A stretch of 64,000 bases of DNA from Gynurincola endophyticus (GTDB taxonomy: Bacteria; Bacteroidota; Bacteroidia; Chitinophagales; Chitinophagaceae): the NCBI RefSeq assembly GCF_003991195.1, contig NZ_RCWL01000001.1, positions 62,001 through 126,000 on the forward strand. Direction: 5' to 3'. Every line of letters starts with the position of its first letter. Position 1 is the first letter of the stretch. Positions 37,219 to 43,483 of the stretch are shown in pieces. The notes under the pieces are model-generated. The model had not been told where the DNA came from. It worked only from the letters and a program-made list of their open reading frames with translations, and did no database searches. Both the position numbers and the translations under genes were made by a program.

Positions 37219-38652
37219 TTAACCTCTTACAGGTTCTGCATTAGAAACGTCCTGTTGTTTATTGGAAGACGTTTCAGTTTTTTGCTGGTGTTCTTTGAAT
37301 TCGGCAACAATTGCAGCAAATGCCTGATCGTATTCAGACCAGTGTTCAGGTAATATGTCTTCTCCATTAACAATAAGACGGGTCATTCGGCTTTTTGCAA
37401 CGCCTATGATATAATGAGTGTTTTGGTAAGTAGTATTAAATTCTCCTGTTAACCGTGAAAGCATTGCACTATCCATTTCTATAGTTGATGTTAACTGCTC
37501 TTTGATCGTTGGTTTTGCAGGAGGTATATTCCGTACTGCAAGAACAGTGGTATCTTTTGGTATGTATACATCTATTGAGTTAGCTTCCGGTATTGTTTTA
37601 ACTGTTTCGGCGATAGTATTTTCTTTCGAACGATTTGTATCATTATAAGAAAAAAAAGCAATTGCAAGAACAGTTGATAAAGCACACAAAAGTGAAGAAA
37701 AACTAATTGAAGCGGTATTCGCCGGCTGACCCAGAATACGTAGTATACGGTAACGTAGTTGTAAGGGGTGTTTTGTAAAAGCAACTACCGGAACAGATTT
37801 TTGAAGAGTATACTTTTTAAACGCTACAAGTGCAATTGCAAATTCTTCCCTGTTGTTCATGTCTTGGATTGCAATATCATCGCAGCAATATTCTCTTTTT
37901 TCACGCAACTGATCAGATAACCATACAAAAGATGGATTGAAGAAGTACAACGCATCTAAAAACAGCTGTATAATGTTAATTACATAATCATGCCTGCATA
38001 TATGTGCCAATTCATGTCGAAGTACTGCTTCTATCTGTACCGGTGGTAAATTGCTGAGAATGCCTAGTGGTAATAATATAACCGGCTTCAGGAAACCTAT
38101 TGTTACAGGTACTTTCATCATTGCTGATTCGAATAACTGAACCTTCTTTTTTATATTCATTTGTTGCACTAGCTGCTCAAAGCGCAGTTGCCACTCTTCG
38201 GGTATGCTGTACAATTGTTGGCGGCGCATTTGTTGAGCTTGCCTCCATCCAAGGACATAAATAGTTAATCGATAACAGAAGAAAACAAACCAGGTAAACA
38301 CTATCCAGGAAGCTGTCTGATTAATATAAGTAGTGAATGAATTTAGTAATGCCGGGTTTTCAATATTCATATCCCCAGAAAACGGTAATAAAGAAAACAC
38401 CTGATCGGGATTTTCCGGTAAAATACTTTTACTACCGGTATAGTATAATAGAAAAGTACTCAGGTTGATGATTGTAAAAGTAAATAAAGAAATAAGCAGC
38501 AACCTGTAATGTAAAGCTGCACTTTTACCACGAGTCAGGTACAAACAAAAGCCGGTAAGCAATGCGATTAAACCTCCTTGCCAGAAAGAGTGCACCAGCA
38601 TCCAACCAAAAGCGGGTACAAAATCGTATGTGAATAAGCCTCCCGTAATCAT
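37219..38652 (-). CDS. M56 family metallopeptidase (BlaR1-like sensor)
   Basis: A 477-residue membrane protein with about four transmembrane helices (near 10-30, 38-60, 100-120 and 305-325). The cytoplasmic zinc protease site HELAHICRHD is near 210 and is preceded by PVTIGFLKPVILLP, the usual M56 block. The C-terminal 150 residues are extracytoplasmic, without a penicillin-binding sensor domain, so the signal is not necessarily a beta-lactam. In this family the protease inactivates a BlaI-type repressor. The BlaI gene overlaps it by 4 bases upstream, which confirms the pairing. Confidence 0.9.
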   Translation of the reverse strand: MITGGLFTYDFVPAFGWMLVHSFWQGGLIALLTGFCLYLTRGKSAALHYRLLLISLFTFTIINLSTFLLYYTGSKSILPENPDQVFSLLPFSGDMNIENPALLNSFTTYINQTASWIVFTWFVFFCYRLTIYVLGWRQAQQMRRQQLYSIPEEWQLRFEQLVQQMNIKKKVQLFESAMMKVPVTIGFLKPVILLPLGILSNLPPVQIEAVLRHELAHICRHDYVINIIQLFLDALYFFNPSFVWLSDQLREKREYCCDDIAIQDMNNREEFAIALVAFKKYTLQKSVPVVAFTKHPLQLRYRILRILGQPANTASISFSSLLCALSTVLAIAFFSYNDTNRSKENTIAETVKTIPEANSIDVYIPKDTTVLAVRNIPPAKPTIKEQLTSTIEMDSAMLSRLTGEFNTTYQNTHYIIGVAKSRMTRLIVNGEDILPEHWSEYDQAFAAIVAEFKEHQQKTETSSNKQQDVSNAEPVRG

Positions 38653-39047
38653 TTCTTGTTTTTTGAAGCAGTGTGCTGATCAATAAGGGTTTTTATTTTC
38701 TCCAGCTCATCATCGCTGGTGTTGTCATTTCCTAATAATGCCATAAAAACCTGACTGCTGGAGCCATTGTAAATGGTGTCAACAAATTGTTGCAGCATCC
38801 CTTTTTTTACTTTCTCTTCTTTAAGAATAGCTGAGTAAACGTGCTTCATGGCCGTTTCATCGCGATCAAGCATACCTTTCTCTTTCATTACCTGCATCAG
38901 CTTCAATGTGGAAGTGTATATCACGGCTTCCTTTTGTTCATTGAGTTTATCATGTACAAAACGAACTGTGGAGGGACCATGTTGCCAGAGTATCTGGAGG
39001 ACATCCATTTCAGTTTTAGTAGGCAATAGATTGTTCTTAGGCTTCAT
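38649..39047 (-). CDS. BlaI/MecI/CopY family repressor
   Basis: A 132-residue winged-helix repressor. The start, TKTEMDVLQILWQHGPSTVRFV, followed by VIYTSTLKLMQVMKEKGML, is the BlaI DNA-binding domain; the remaining helices dimerise and hold the cleavage region. Its stop overlaps the start of the M56 gene by 4 bases, so the two are translationally coupled and form a one-signal switch. A palindrome at 39067-39080, 20 bases upstream, is the probable operator for autorepression. Confidence 0.93.
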   Translation of the reverse strand: MKPKNNLLPTKTEMDVLQILWQHGPSTVRFVHDKLNEQKEAVIYTSTLKLMQVMKEKGMLDRDETAMKHVYSAILKEEKVKKGMLQQFVDTIYNGSSSQVFMALLGNDNTSDDELEKIKTLIDQHTASKNKK

Positions 39048-39080: not shown

Positions 39081-39161
39081 GATATTTTAGCTTTTTTTTC
39101 TTTAGAAAATATAGAGATTTGTTTTTTAAATTATATAAATGCTTGATTACGTGCATGTAAC

Positions 39162-39202
39162 AAAAAGGCAATAAGAAACGGTACATATCGGTTCTTATTG
39201 CC
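39162..39202 (-). terminator. Terminator of the amine oxidase-aminotransferase-Hint operon
   Basis: GGCAATAAGAA (39167-39177) pairs with TTCTTATTGCC (39192-39202). On the minus strand the stem is followed by TTTTTGTT. Confidence 0.7.
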
Positions 39203-39230
39203 TGCATTATAAACAATAGGATTATTAAAA

Positions 39231-40223
39231 CTATTTTTGGCGCACCATAACTCCGTTCATGATAAATGTATCGCCTCCGGTGGTTTCCATGTTGTAGACG
39301 ATCTGAACACCTTCAGGTTTTTCAGACTTACTCCATACTTCGAATCGCTCGAAGTTACCGGTAGTTGGATTTTTGCAAAGGATACTTTCTCCTTTTTCAA
39401 TTGCTCCGATGTTTTTTAAACCTTTACTGGTAGTCATGGGGTGATTGGGTGTAGCAGAAACTGCGAGTGTATTCAGGTAAGTTCCTTCCTCTTTTACAAC
39501 TGTGTTAAACAACGTTAGGGTAGTAATCGCATAATTCTCTGCCTTGTGTTCAATCAACTTCGTTACGGTTACTACCTGTGGTTGTGCAGTCTGAGTATGG
39601 AGGGTTAAAATCTGATCACCAGTTTTGATGTTCTTTAATAATTTCTGTGAGCCGTCAGCCATTGCTACGAGATCTGTTCCCGGAAAACAAATATCATTTC
39701 CATAAGTACCCGCTTCTGCTCTGCTATCGTCTTCTCCTTTTAATAAAACCTTGTAATTAGCATAGCTTAATTCACGTGAAAGGATATAAGATAGCTTCAG
39801 TACAAAGTTGGCCTCAACTTTATCGATTGCGTGAATATCTGTGAAATATTGCTCCCAAACAGCACCGGCCGCAAAGTTATTGGGTAAACAGGCTATATAG
39901 CGTTTACCGGTTTCTGTAGTATAATAAATGATCAAACCTAATGAGACGTCTTCTCCTTTTTTAGTCAGGGAGTAGAGATCAATACGTTTTCTTTTGCCAT
40001 CATCGCCGGTTACGAAATACGGTTTTTTATCTTCATAACGTTCAACGATGTATTGGTTGTTGCCAAACTTGGCATAATTGTCTTCATCGGGCTTCTCAAT
40101 ATTATAAGTTTTGGCATTCTTGTATTCTTCCATTGTAATGCCTCGTGTTTCTTTGCTTTGAGCAGTAGCTGTGTTAATTGACAGCGAAAGGATGCTTACA
40201 ATGCTCCAGCATAATTTTCTCAT
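39231..40223 (-). CDS. Secreted protein with C-terminal Hint (hedgehog/intein) domain
   Basis: A 330-residue protein. The signal peptide (about 1-22, ending NTATAQ) is followed by about 155 residues of a domain I do not recognise, then a Hint domain from C179. Block A reads CFPGTDLVAMADGSQKLLKN, block B reads ATPNHPMTTSKG with the catalytic histidine at about 261, and the end METTGGDTFIMNGVMV matches the last intein block, without the usual terminal H-N and with no C-extein. Hint domains cut the bond before their cysteine, so this one could release or modify the N-terminal domain. It is the last gene of an operon with two Tat-exported enzymes. The ATG at 40223 is chosen because the signal peptide begins there. 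Confidence 0.75.
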   Translation of the reverse strand: MRKLCWSIVSILSLSINTATAQSKETRGITMEEYKNAKTYNIEKPDEDNYAKFGNNQYIVERYEDKKPYFVTGDDGKRKRIDLYSLTKKGEDVSLGLIIYYTTETGKRYIACLPNNFAAGAVWEQYFTDIHAIDKVEANFVLKLSYILSRELSYANYKVLLKGEDDSRAEAGTYGNDICFPGTDLVAMADGSQKLLKNIKTGDQILTLHTQTAQPQVVTVTKLIEHKAENYAITTLTLFNTVVKEEGTYLNTLAVSATPNHPMTTSKGLKNIGAIEKGESILCKNPTTGNFERFEVWSKSEKPEGVQIVYNMETTGGDTFIMNGVMVRQK

Positions 40224-40257
40224 AGTATTCTCTTTTGGTAGTTGATTCAAAACTTTA

Positions 40258-41427
40258 TCAGGATATTTTTGCCAGCGATAACGCGAAAGCCTTCATCTCT
40301 TCTAGTGTACCTATAGATACTCTGCACCATTGTTGATTGTTGAATTGCCAGCTTCTGACACTCACACCGTTGTTCGACATTTTGGTGGCAAAACTTCTGC
40401 TGTCTTCTTTAACCGGAAAAATTACAAAATTTGCGCTGGAAGGAATGTAGGTATAACCTTCTTCTTTCAGTACATTGTATAAGTATTCTTTAGACTCTTT
40501 AATTTTTGTGTACGCATCTCTTAAAAAGTCTTTGTCTTCGTAAGATGAAATAGCTGCAGCCCAGGTGGTAGAAGCAATACTGTTTGAGCCGGGTGTAAGA
40601 GCACTGAATTTTTTGATGGTTTCGGGTTGCGCTACCATATAGCCGAAACGCATGCCGGCCATCCCGTATAACTTTGAAAAAGTTCTTACAATAATTACAT
40701 TGTGTCCTTCTTTCACGAGCGGCATCATACTGCTTACAGCAGGATCTTCAACCAGATCTATGTATGCTTCATCAATAAAGACAGGTACTTTTTTTGATAC
40801 TTTCTCACAGAAAGATTTCAGTTTGACCGGATCGAGTAAAGTAGCGGTTGGGTTATTGGGGTTGCAGATATATATCAGTGAAGTGGTAGCGTCTATTGCT
40901 TTTTCGATAGCATCCAGATCATATTTATAAGCGGATGTCAGTGGTAAGCGAATTACTTTCGTACCCATACTTTCAGCTTTGCTTAACAGGTCTTCATAAG
41001 TAGGTTGTGCGGATAGAATAGTTCCGGAATTATAAACCATTGCTCCGGCCTGTAGCAATGCGCTTGAGCCGGCACTTAAAAGAATCTGGTTAGGTTGAAG
41101 TGCTTCGGCTTTTGCAATCAACTCTATCATTTTTCTACCTTCAAAGAATGCATATCGATACGTGTTTCCGATGGCTTCTATTATAGCCTGTTTGGCTTTC
41201 GGAGAAGGACCGAAAGGGTTTTCGTTAGCGCTGAGCCTTGCTTTAATTTCGGGTGGCGTAGTTTCTCTGGCCAGTTCCTCATCTGTGAGAAAATTGACAA
41301 AAGAAGCCGGCTCAATTTGCCTGCGCGGTGCGGCTTTTAACGAAGTGAGCACACCTGGTAATAATGCCATGCCTGAAAGGAGGGCACCATTCCGGAGCAG
41401 TTGACGGCGGTTGAAAGATGCTGGCAT
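40258..41427 (-). CDS. Tat-exported PLP-dependent aminotransferase (HisC-like)
   Basis: A 389-residue fold-type I aminotransferase of the histidinol-phosphate-aminotransferase-like group. The N-terminus has a twin-arginine signal: NRRQLLRNG, then a hydrophobic stretch to about 32. The enzyme core shows LSANENPFGPSP, CNPNNPTATLL, FIDEAYIDL, and the PLP lysine in RTFSKLYGMAGMRFGY near 250. Export of a PLP enzyme in folded form through Tat is unusual but consistent with cofactor loading in the cytoplasm. The amine oxidase gene is 45 bases upstream and the Hint gene about 34 bases downstream, all on one strand. The substrate is unknown; it is probably an amino acid or amine. Confidence 0.85.
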   Translation of the reverse strand: MPASFNRRQLLRNGALLSGMALLPGVLTSLKAAPRRQIEPASFVNFLTDEELARETTPPEIKARLSANENPFGPSPKAKQAIIEAIGNTYRYAFFEGRKMIELIAKAEALQPNQILLSAGSSALLQAGAMVYNSGTILSAQPTYEDLLSKAESMGTKVIRLPLTSAYKYDLDAIEKAIDATTSLIYICNPNNPTATLLDPVKLKSFCEKVSKKVPVFIDEAYIDLVEDPAVSSMMPLVKEGHNVIIVRTFSKLYGMAGMRFGYMVAQPETIKKFSALTPGSNSIASTTWAAAISSYEDKDFLRDAYTKIKESKEYLYNVLKEEGYTYIPSSANFVIFPVKEDSRSFATKMSNNGVSVRSWQFNNQQWCRVSIGTLEEMKAFALSLAKIS

Positions 41428-41472
41428 AAAGAATGTTTTTGTTGTTTAGTATAGTAAATGCTGGTATTCAGG

Positions 41473-43083
41473 CTAAAGGAATGTTTTACCGGTAACTCTG
41501 CTATGAATAGCTTTCACGGCCGTTCTTCCCGATTGTAATGCACCAGCCATCCATCCGTTCAGATAAGTGAGGTGATCACCGGCGAAATAAGTCCGTTTAT
41601 CCGGTTCAAGTAAAGCTGTATAAAAGCTATGACGTTCTTTCTCAGAATAGATACCCCAGCCCCCTAGAGAATATTTGGTTTTATGCCAGCTGACAGAAAA
41701 GCTTTTTCTTTCATACGTTGAAGCATATTGCGGATGTATCAGCAACCCTTTCTCATATGCCAGTTTTTCTCTTTCGGCATAAGATAACTCTCCCACAATC
41801 CGGGCACGTTCATTTAAATTGTAATAACCAATCAGCATTCCTTTTTTCGACAGGTAATCGTTAGAAGGATAAAATATCTGATATATTTCGTTATTGGTAT
41901 GCGTGATGCCCCCAAATATTTCTTCGTCTTCTTCCCAGAATCTCCGGTTGAATTGCATACCGATTTTACCACACAGGATATAGGCTGTTTTGTCAATCGC
42001 TCTGGTGTGATTAGAAGCATAATTGTGATCGATATCACTTAAAACTTTAAGAGGGATGGTATTAATGCAGAAATCACCTTTTATTTGCTGATTGCCCTTT
42101 TTGTTGCGATATAAAATGGTAACACCTTCATCGCCATTGATAATTTTTGTGACTTCGGCATTCAGTAGAATATTGGATCTTAACCGTTTTTCAAACTCAA
42201 GAACAAGTGCGTCGTTACCACCTGTCATTTGCAGCATGGTTTGTTGTAATTCGTAGACGTACTCGGCAACTCCGTAAAAGTCAGGACCGATCAGGCCAGA
42301 CTGTATAATATCGTTTAGTGGATGTGGGTTTGCTACAGTTCCCGGATAGAGGCCCGCCGCAGGATACTCAATATACCCTCTGCGTGATGAACCTTTATAA
42401 ATATTATCAATGTCTAGAGCTCCTTCTGCACGTACATACTCCAATAATTTTTCAGTATCTTCTTTGGTAACCGGTAAATCTAAAGCGCTGCTGTCAAGCG
42501 ATTTCGCTAACAATTCTGCTGTATAGCCGCGCATGTCGTTGTGCAGGGTACCTTTTTTTATTTTCCGGTTAGAGAGTTTTCCGTTTCCTTCACTGAAGTA
42601 GTAAGCTGCTTCATTAATGTTATTGTAAACTTCCAGTTTTACGCCGAATTCACGACAATAATGTAGTGTGACTTCGTGAAAATGTGGTATTCTTGAAGGC
42701 CCTGCATTGAAGTATTGTCCTTCGTCAAATTCAGCCGTCAATTTGCCATTGGTAATTTCTTCTGAGAAACTTCCTTTACGAACGGTAAACACTCTGCCTC
42801 CCACCCGTTCACGTGCTTCAATAACAGTACATTTATACCCGAGTTTATTCAGTTCGTAGGCGGCTACCAATCCGGAAAGTCCGGCACCGAGAATGATTAC
42901 ATTTTTCGAATCAGGGTTTGGGAGTTTGTCGGCCATATCCGGTAAGGCATTTACCGGTGCGGCGTGTAAAAGATCCCAGGATAACATGCCGGGGAGGGTT
43001 AATCCTGTAAGCATTCCTAATCTGGTCAAAAATTCTCTTCTGGTAGGCACAGTCTGCCCCTTATATGTACTTTTTTCAGTCAT
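41473..43083 (-). CDS. Tat-exported FAD-dependent amine/L-amino-acid oxidase
   Basis: A 536-residue flavoprotein of the flavin amine oxidase (monoamine oxidase/LAAO) family. The twin-arginine signal is TRREFLTRLGML with a hydrophobic run to about 42. The FAD-binding motif VIILGAGLSGLVAAYEL follows (about 62-78), then VIEARERVGGRV; the C-terminal FAD block is RTYFAGDHLTYLNGWMAGAL. It should oxidise an amine or amino acid with hydrogen peroxide as by-product, outside the cytoplasm. It is the first gene of a three-gene operon. A 23-bp AT palindrome lies about 100 bases upstream. Confidence 0.87.
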   Translation of the reverse strand: MTEKSTYKGQTVPTRREFLTRLGMLTGLTLPGMLSWDLLHAAPVNALPDMADKLPNPDSKNVIILGAGLSGLVAAYELNKLGYKCTVIEARERVGGRVFTVRKGSFSEEITNGKLTAEFDEGQYFNAGPSRIPHFHEVTLHYCREFGVKLEVYNNINEAAYYFSEGNGKLSNRKIKKGTLHNDMRGYTAELLAKSLDSSALDLPVTKEDTEKLLEYVRAEGALDIDNIYKGSSRRGYIEYPAAGLYPGTVANPHPLNDIIQSGLIGPDFYGVAEYVYELQQTMLQMTGGNDALVLEFEKRLRSNILLNAEVTKIINGDEGVTILYRNKKGNQQIKGDFCINTIPLKVLSDIDHNYASNHTRAIDKTAYILCGKIGMQFNRRFWEEDEEIFGGITHTNNEIYQIFYPSNDYLSKKGMLIGYYNLNERARIVGELSYAEREKLAYEKGLLIHPQYASTYERKSFSVSWHKTKYSLGGWGIYSEKERHSFYTALLEPDKRTYFAGDHLTYLNGWMAGALQSGRTAVKAIHSRVTGKTFL

Positions 43084-43208: not shown

Positions 43209-43483
43209 TTGTTTGTTGTTCAAATATATTAAAAAGTAAATAGAATTGATTCATATTAATACATAGAATTAATTATAATATGTTGAAAGTTCCTTGTTTT
43301 TAAAAGAAAAGTATTTTCTGAATAACGAACAATTGAATAGATTGGATTATACTTATTTGATTATTATTATTTTGTCAGTTTTTTAAGAATAAGATTATTT
43401 TGTTTTTGTTATATTAGAATAAATAATATATTAATTATATTTTATCTTATATACGATAAATGCACAGAGGAAAATAGAAAAAT

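Follow-up and report, generated by a model that had tools for sequence, protein, structure and literature searches.

The window analysed here, a stretch of 64,000 nucleotides from the Bacteroidota bacterium Gynurincola endophyticus (NCBI RefSeq assembly GCF_003991195.1, contig NZ_RCWL01000001.1, positions 62,001 to 126,000 of the forward strand), carries a run of three genes on its minus strand at positions 39231-43083. In order, they encode an L-amino-acid oxidase (LAAO), an aminotransferase (AT) and a protein ending in a Hint domain, referred to below as the Hint protein. The evidence assembled here suggests that the third gene probably encodes an exported precursor that processes itself. 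The run is laid out as follows (aa, amino acids; Tat, twin-arginine translocation; PLP, pyridoxal phosphate):

41473..43083, minus strand: LAAO, a Tat-type L-amino-acid oxidase, 536 aa
40258..41427, minus strand: AT, a Tat-type HisC-like PLP aminotransferase, 389 aa
39231..40223, minus strand: Hint protein, 330 aa plus stop, counted from ATG (a TTG start 27 bp upstream is possible)
39158..39203, minus strand: terminator-like hairpin with U-run, 3' of the last gene, found by folding

Spacers of 45 and 34 bp separate the genes. Beyond the Hint gene, a hairpin spans 39166-39203 with the U-run behind it (z -3.96), and 0 of 200 shuffled sequences folded as well. A preliminary description of the window had reported three same-strand genes with gaps of 45 and about 34 bases and a shared terminator, and this layout was confirmed. 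Export signals of both the Tat and the Sec type were assigned by sequence pattern.

The first gene had been described as a flavin adenine dinucleotide (FAD) amine oxidase. The oxidase assignment stood (PF01593, E 1.5e-48) but is corrected to L-amino-acid oxidase: the nearest solved chain was the L-amino-acid oxidase of Rhodococcus opacus (2jae), matched over its full length at E 1.1e-91, and the next solved chain stood at 7.9e-38. R131, Y421 and W476, which we take, in identity and role, to be the counterparts of the R. opacus residues that hold the substrate and its carboxylate, were kept in 102/102, 103/103 and 103/103 of the sequences covering each position. LAAO is thus a member of the L-amino-acid oxidase family by its sequence and its substrate-carboxylate residues, and oxidase activity is predicted. 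In contrast to the R. opacus enzyme, it carries a Tat-type signal and was accompanied by a Hint gene in every near-complete genome tested.

AT matched PF00155 (E 2.8e-50) and, like the HisC-like aminotransferases, including the Tat-type subfamily PRK09105 and the pyoverdine enzyme PtaA, is of class I/II with a PLP lysine (K252, in 112/112). It differed from all three in score: 234.4 bits to the NCBIfam hisC model, under the equivalog cut-off of 276.55, and 269 and 219 bits to PRK09105 and PtaA, below curated cut-offs of 444 and 500. On these scores AT is a relative of the PLP aminotransferases that falls outside the HisC equivalog. Twin-arginine signals had been reported on both enzymes, and the arginines were present in every sequence covering them: R15-R16 in 101/101 for LAAO (103 aligned) and R7-R8 in 111/111 for AT (112 aligned).

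The Hint protein comprises a signal, an N-terminal domain (N-domain) and the Hint domain:

40158..40223, minus strand: Sec-type signal, residues 1-22, by pattern (a hydrophobic stretch, then ATAQ)
39690..40157, minus strand: N-domain, residues 23-178, no family recognised, model confidence (pLDDT) 89
39234..39689, minus strand: Hint domain, residues 179-330, by fold and PF01079
39687..39689, minus strand: codon of C179, the Hint nucleophile, 124/124
39546..39548, minus strand: codon of H226, candidate general base, His in 121/124 and Asn in 3/124
39441..39452, minus strand: T258-P-N-H261 block, T258 and H261 in 124/124
39234..39236, minus strand: codon of K330, at the intein +1 position by alignment ranges, 124/124

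We aligned 126 Hint proteins, 88 from the first searches (the window's included) and 38 from a second lineage; counts over 124 proteins leave out L035 and L166, set aside for an early stop and a broken C-terminus. The preliminary description had proposed that conservation of the Hint cysteine and histidine be checked, and both were invariant in the 124 intact orthologues. D75, P114, C179, F180, T258, H261, P262 and K330 were all invariant in this set, and pairwise identity among the aligned proteins dropped to 19%. A signal-peptidase-like A-x-[AGSV]-Q motif was present in 100/126, a hydrophobic stretch in 114/126 and a loose lipobox in 8/126. The earlier reading of a Sec signal, an unrecognised N-domain, C179 and T-x-x-H was right, the signal being assigned by pattern and the N-domain having no convincing match.

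The model of residues 179-330 aligned to hedgehog 1at0 with Z 20.1, a root-mean-square deviation of 1.7, 137 aligned residues and 18% identity. Other matches were 6tyy (hedgehog D46H, Z 20.1), 2lwy, a bacterial intein-like (BIL) domain (19.3), and the Npu DnaB intein (19.2). Because these Z scores tie, the fold cannot favour hedgehog over intein. The N-terminus of the model coincided with that of the hedgehog and intein domains. PF01079 was matched by 29/29 members at E <= 0.01 (best 9.5e-12), the window member reaching 28.8-29.2 bits, just short of the 29.7 cut-off, and PF07591 (pretoxin Hint) was matched weakly by 17/29 Hint domains (best E 2.6e-06). The protein belongs to the HINT superfamily: it has the cysteine nucleophile, the T-x-x-H block and, in the predicted model, the Hint fold. 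Hint domains are described as cutting before their cysteine in PMC9163320 and PMC7765530. The residue preceding that cysteine, 178, was I in 87, F in 26, Y in 10 and V in 1 of 124, and is Ile in the window protein.

H226 lay two residues from hedgehog D46 (D303) in MAFFT alignments under three settings and one residue away by Pfam coordinates of truncated fragments; a hand alignment favoured equivalence. The three proteins with Asn at this position (L171, L172, L173) belong to genus g126 and come from AT-Hint loci in genomes without a LAAO gene; they keep C179, T-x-x-H and K330. Residue 311, assigned manually to the intein Asp F:4 position, was N in 110, S in 9, H in 3 and T in 2 of 124.

K330 was conserved to the same degree as the catalytic cysteine. 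It was the final residue in 99/124 proteins, and tails of 1-6 residues followed it in 25/124. Residue 329 of the model aligned to the last residue of the Mtu RecA (440), PI-PfuI (454), Pab PolII (185) and Ssp DnaE (159) inteins, whose lengths we assume to be these, and also to a residue 198. Residue 330 aligned one further: to 441 of 5i0a, 146 of 6riy (an N145 mutant by its title), 144 of 6y75 (an N143A protein) and also a residue 199. One row, 6zgq (an N146A protein), did not fit, ending at 150. With most rows agreeing, the alignment ranges place 329 at the terminal Asn/Gln position of inteins and K330 at +1. The preliminary description had the protein ending without a C-extein; there is indeed none, but the chain passes the intein terminal-Asn position by one residue, the invariant Lys330, which had gone unnoticed.

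Residue 329 was Q in 87, D in 22, E in 6 and N in 3 (118/124 together) and K, T, V or R in the remaining 6; residue 328 was mostly L or M and never His in the 124 proteins. According to PMC4031507, the +1 residue of class 1 inteins is Cys, Ser or Thr, and cyclisation at the intein end is also possible with Gln, Glu or Asp. A type IX secretion C-terminal signal was considered as the reason for K330; neither Pfam (to E 1) nor NCBIfam (to E 0.1) returned a sorting-domain profile for the window protein. K330 may help catalysis, hold the active site or serve as acyl acceptor.

The N-domain was modelled alone with a pLDDT of 89. Against PDB, a sequence-profile search returned one match, at E 3.1, taken as chance. 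Against Pfam, the window member gave none among the 29 members searched, and six families turned up inconsistently, each of them in 1-4 members (best E 0.0013). Foldseek returned nothing at E <= 0.001. In VIA-align the best Z was 4.5, with CENP-P and polo-box chains tied; because VIA-align re-aligns Foldseek candidates only, the N-domain may still have a known fold. The N-domain thus has no convincing match in the libraries searched. It was conserved above the Hint domain, with a mean pairwise column identity of 0.52 against 0.44 (70% against 59% in 29 sequences), which fits the N-domain as the working product. It was seen only fused to a Hint domain, in open frames of 303-396 aa in 80/80 second-lineage genomes. 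A match in G448 (E 0.002) was dropped as chance for overlying other frames, and one in G205 (E 0.001) was dropped as chance without inspection. A plasmid search gave no match. The genome of the window holds a single Hint protein copy by both full-length and Hint-profile search.

The first 75 loci came from a pattern scan of one-genome-per-species records, whose reach is close relatives. By their record titles, which we take to be Bacteroidota throughout, they include Cnuella, Paraflavitalea, Mucilaginibacter, Pedobacter, Hymenobacter, Adhaeribacter, Pontibacter, Rufibacter and Chryseolinea. LAAO and AT matches lay beside the Hint gene in all 75 loci, which had been found by the Hint protein. 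LAAO was a contig-edge fragment in L058 and in two pieces in L048, and the Hint frame stopped early in L035. The preliminary description had named gene order as a point to check, and a strict order-and-strand script passed 74/75; the remaining locus (L034) was LAAO-AT-Hint with a second AT. The module also persisted where its order was reshuffled, as described below. No further neighbour was constant, the next commonest family occurring in 17/75 loci (ATG frames of at least 100 aa). Two loci held two tandem or flanking HisC-like aminotransferase genes instead of one (L110, 7944-10386; L034, 6692-10402).

Across a sample of the window's family, the Hint protein was present in 13/195 genomes, the window's included and one chance match dropped. 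The dropped match, at L014 (E 8.8e-4), was a 199-aa frame lacking Hint domain and signal. LAAO was present in 14/14 other Hint genomes tested (12 from the window's family, 2 from a phylum sample). In the phylum sample, LAAO (E <= 1e-60) was found in 10/395 genomes, and the nine besides the window's all had the Hint protein. The module spans several Bacteroidota lineages, and its conservation is not chance.

A second lineage, family f10, extended this picture. The first two Hint proteins found there were 25-29% identical to the window's. From 80 Hint-positive genomes, 38 loci were hand-picked across score ranges, selected by the Hint protein; their order was AT-LAAO-Hint in 26, AT-Hint in 10 and LAAO-Hint in 2. 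One LAAO-Hint locus (L167) is a 3.9-kb contig, and for the other (L185) the nearest AT lies elsewhere in the genome. All ten AT-Hint loci came from genus g126. A renewed LAAO search (E <= 1e-10) in these ten genomes and one more of g126 found none in six and a distant oxidase, at 26-28% identity, in five. These 11 were among 12 Hint-only genomes; the twelfth, G766, was left out (84% complete, match near a contig end). LAAO is therefore dispensable, since AT-Hint loci make up 10/38 and those genomes have no close LAAO elsewhere. In two LAAO-less loci (L196 and L195, from G377 and G636) the strand opposite the AT-Hint pair carried a second related aminotransferase some 6 kb away.

Among 200 f10 genomes, the Hint protein was present in 80, LAAO in 69 and both in 68 (Fisher p 1.3e-39, shared ancestry ignored). 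The two counts came from two 200-genome draws treated as one set; their handles coincide, and most matchless genomes are unlisted. The sole genome with LAAO only (G640) has a completeness of 71% and an interrupted LAAO frame. These counts make the Hint protein the constant member of the module; LAAO without it was not seen in the near-complete genomes of the samples.

We propose, at a probability of roughly 0.55, that the third gene encodes an exported self-processing precursor, cut at 178/179, and that the freed N-domain works with AT and, usually, LAAO. The precursor would first be exported by Sec. The Hint domain would then move the carbonyl of residue 178 onto the C179 thiol with the help of T258 and H261. 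The thioester would next be broken by a nucleophile; hydrolysis by water is the simplest case. The released N-domain would act with the Tat-exported AT and, usually, LAAO, either in the periplasm or on the cell surface. This reading is supported by the invariance of C179, F180, T258, H261 and P262 at identities down to 19%, by synteny in 75/75 loci together with co-occurrence in the reshuffled lineage, by an N-domain found only joined to a Hint domain, and by a Hint fold that shares its N-terminus with hedgehog and inteins. The preliminary proposal was that the Hint step may mature or attach a periplasmic factor working with the two enzymes. Maturation stands as a likely reading; lipid attachment is unsupported, and LAAO is not an obligatory partner.

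Several observations weigh against self-processing. The cleavage, the final protein locations, the attacker of the thioester and the cooperation of N-domain and enzymes are what we infer, the cleavage from sequence and a predicted model. The whole-protein model had a mean pLDDT of 90 but a pTM of 0.53, which leaves the domain arrangement uncertain. The residue ahead of the cysteine is bulky, unlike the Gly of hedgehog. Residue 311 is not Asp, which speaks against a plain intein-type active site. Finally, the co-occurrence statistics ignore shared ancestry.

Attack by something other than water would change the product. As in hedgehog, the C179 thioester could be attacked by a lipid, glycan, cell-wall component or small molecule through an alcohol or amine group, leaving the N-domain anchored or tagged at 178; the acceptor would perhaps be made or altered by AT and LAAO. 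The Hint protein resembles hedgehog (1at0; PF01079) as a secreted-type precursor with a signal, a conserved N-domain and a C-terminal Hint domain with Cys1 and T-x-x-H, and its Hint model was no closer to any structure than to 1at0. The near-invariant H226 falls in the strand region that holds hedgehog D46. Hedgehog with a D46-to-His swap stays active and takes a wider range of acceptors (Zhao 2019, as described in PMC9163320), and Hog-Hint domains are characterised by an Asp or His that activates cholesterol (PMC7765530). However, the Hint protein is bacterial and encoded with LAAO and AT, its N-domain is unrelated by profile search, and its general base is a candidate, set one or two residues off D46 by the alignments and replaced by Asn in 3/124. 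A sterol-recognition region would not fit: the polypeptide stops where the Hint fold does, and tails after K330 have 0-6 residues in 124/124. The matches to inteins and a BIL domain are just as good. We regard external transfer as possible but rather unlikely. A more doubtful idea is that the acceptor is K330 itself: its side-chain amine would attack the thioester, giving an isopeptide-linked N-domain and so a branched protein; this would be a new Hint class. If 329 then cyclised, the product would be an N-domain carrying an epsilon-linked lysine as its cap; the free L-alpha-amino acid end of that lysine would be a plausible substrate for LAAO or AT, which would account for both partner enzymes. 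The Hint protein is like inteins (Mtu RecA, Npu DnaB) in its fold (Z about 19), Cys1, T-x-x-H and a residue 329 of a kind (Q/D/E/N in 118/124) said in PMC4031507 to permit intein cyclisation. It differs in having Lys at +1 in 124/124 where inteins have Cys, Ser or Thr, in its lack of a penultimate His and of a C-extein to rejoin, and in the constancy of the N-domain joined to it. The case for a lysine acceptor consists of conservation and position: an invariant lysine, most often at the very end, placed on +1 by the alignment ranges. Against it stand the 6/124 proteins with K, T, V or R at 329, the 25/124 with residues past K330, the protonation of most lysine amine at neutral pH and the AT-Hint genomes without LAAO, and K330 may serve catalysis or structure instead.

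Other explanations do without a maturing role for the Hint domain in this pathway. It could be a non-cutting fold, kept as a structural or binding module, with the uncut protein as the active form. The Asp F:4 position seems to be replaced, and other proteins retain their folds after catalysis is lost; yet the cysteine and T-x-x-H stayed invariant in 124/124 while the rest of the domain drifted, and we consider this improbable. That the operon is ordinary periplasmic amino-acid catabolism, in which the Hint gene has an unrelated job, is more improbable still. LAAO and AT do resemble working catabolic enzymes, but in the 38 Hint-selected second-lineage loci either enzyme gene could be absent and Hint never was, and independent LAAO-based searches met the Hint protein in 10/10 phylum-sample and 68/69 second-lineage LAAO genomes. 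The slimmest chance falls to a polymorphic-toxin or hypervariable BIL protein whose Hint domain releases a toxin. The weak PF07591 matches in 17/29 Hint domains point that way, but the conserved N-domain and the synteny largely refute it, and the protein is small, ends almost directly after the Hint domain, has fixed partners and is single-copy in its own genome. Like BIL domains of types A and B (2lwy, 6y75), it is bacterial, has the Hint fold (2lwy, Z 19.3) and is expected to be cleaved N-terminally. Unlike type A it has no C-terminal His-Asn (328 is never His, and 329 is Asn in 3/124) and ends in an invariant Lys. Type B also differs from this dedicated conserved protein and operon, BIL domains being described in PMC7765530 from hypervariable regions of non-conserved proteins.

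The self-processing precursor proposed here falls outside the hedgehog, intein, BIL type A and BIL type B settings as defined in PMC7765530, PMC4031507 and PMC9163320. No title on this gene set was found in the open-licence PMC literature. The chemistry is known; the conserved setting is new and the invariant residue unusual, and the whole looks like an undescribed protein-processing system.

Upstream of the operon, one short match to a promoter element offers weak evidence:

43221..43228, minus strand: TATATTTG, match to the Bacteroidota -7 element (TAnnTTTG, which we take to be the motif), 145 nt upstream of the LAAO ATG

A promoter scan was uninformative, with 23 sigma-70-like sites against 15.4 (standard deviation 4.1) in shuffled sequence. 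The terminator scan run with it missed the operon hairpin, which came out on folding. Directly past the operon terminator, at 37219-39047 on the minus strand, a penicillinase-repressor-type gene (PF03965) overlaps an M56/BlaR1-type peptidase gene (PF05569); this is an ordinary BlaI/BlaR-like pair.

Outside inteins, the bacterial Hint domains described so far come mostly from toxin proteins or hypervariable ones. The domain studied here belongs to a conserved protein of its own, linked to two enzymes, which allows a Hint reaction to be connected with a physiological function. With an acceptor other than water, the system would amount to hedgehog-type protein transfer in a bacterium, or to a variant of that transfer based on lysine, and could be useful in protein engineering. 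Were K330 the acceptor, the two Tat-exported enzymes encoded alongside could oxidise or transaminate the capping lysine, and the protein would carry, outside the cytoplasm, a bound amino acid or keto acid of its own making.

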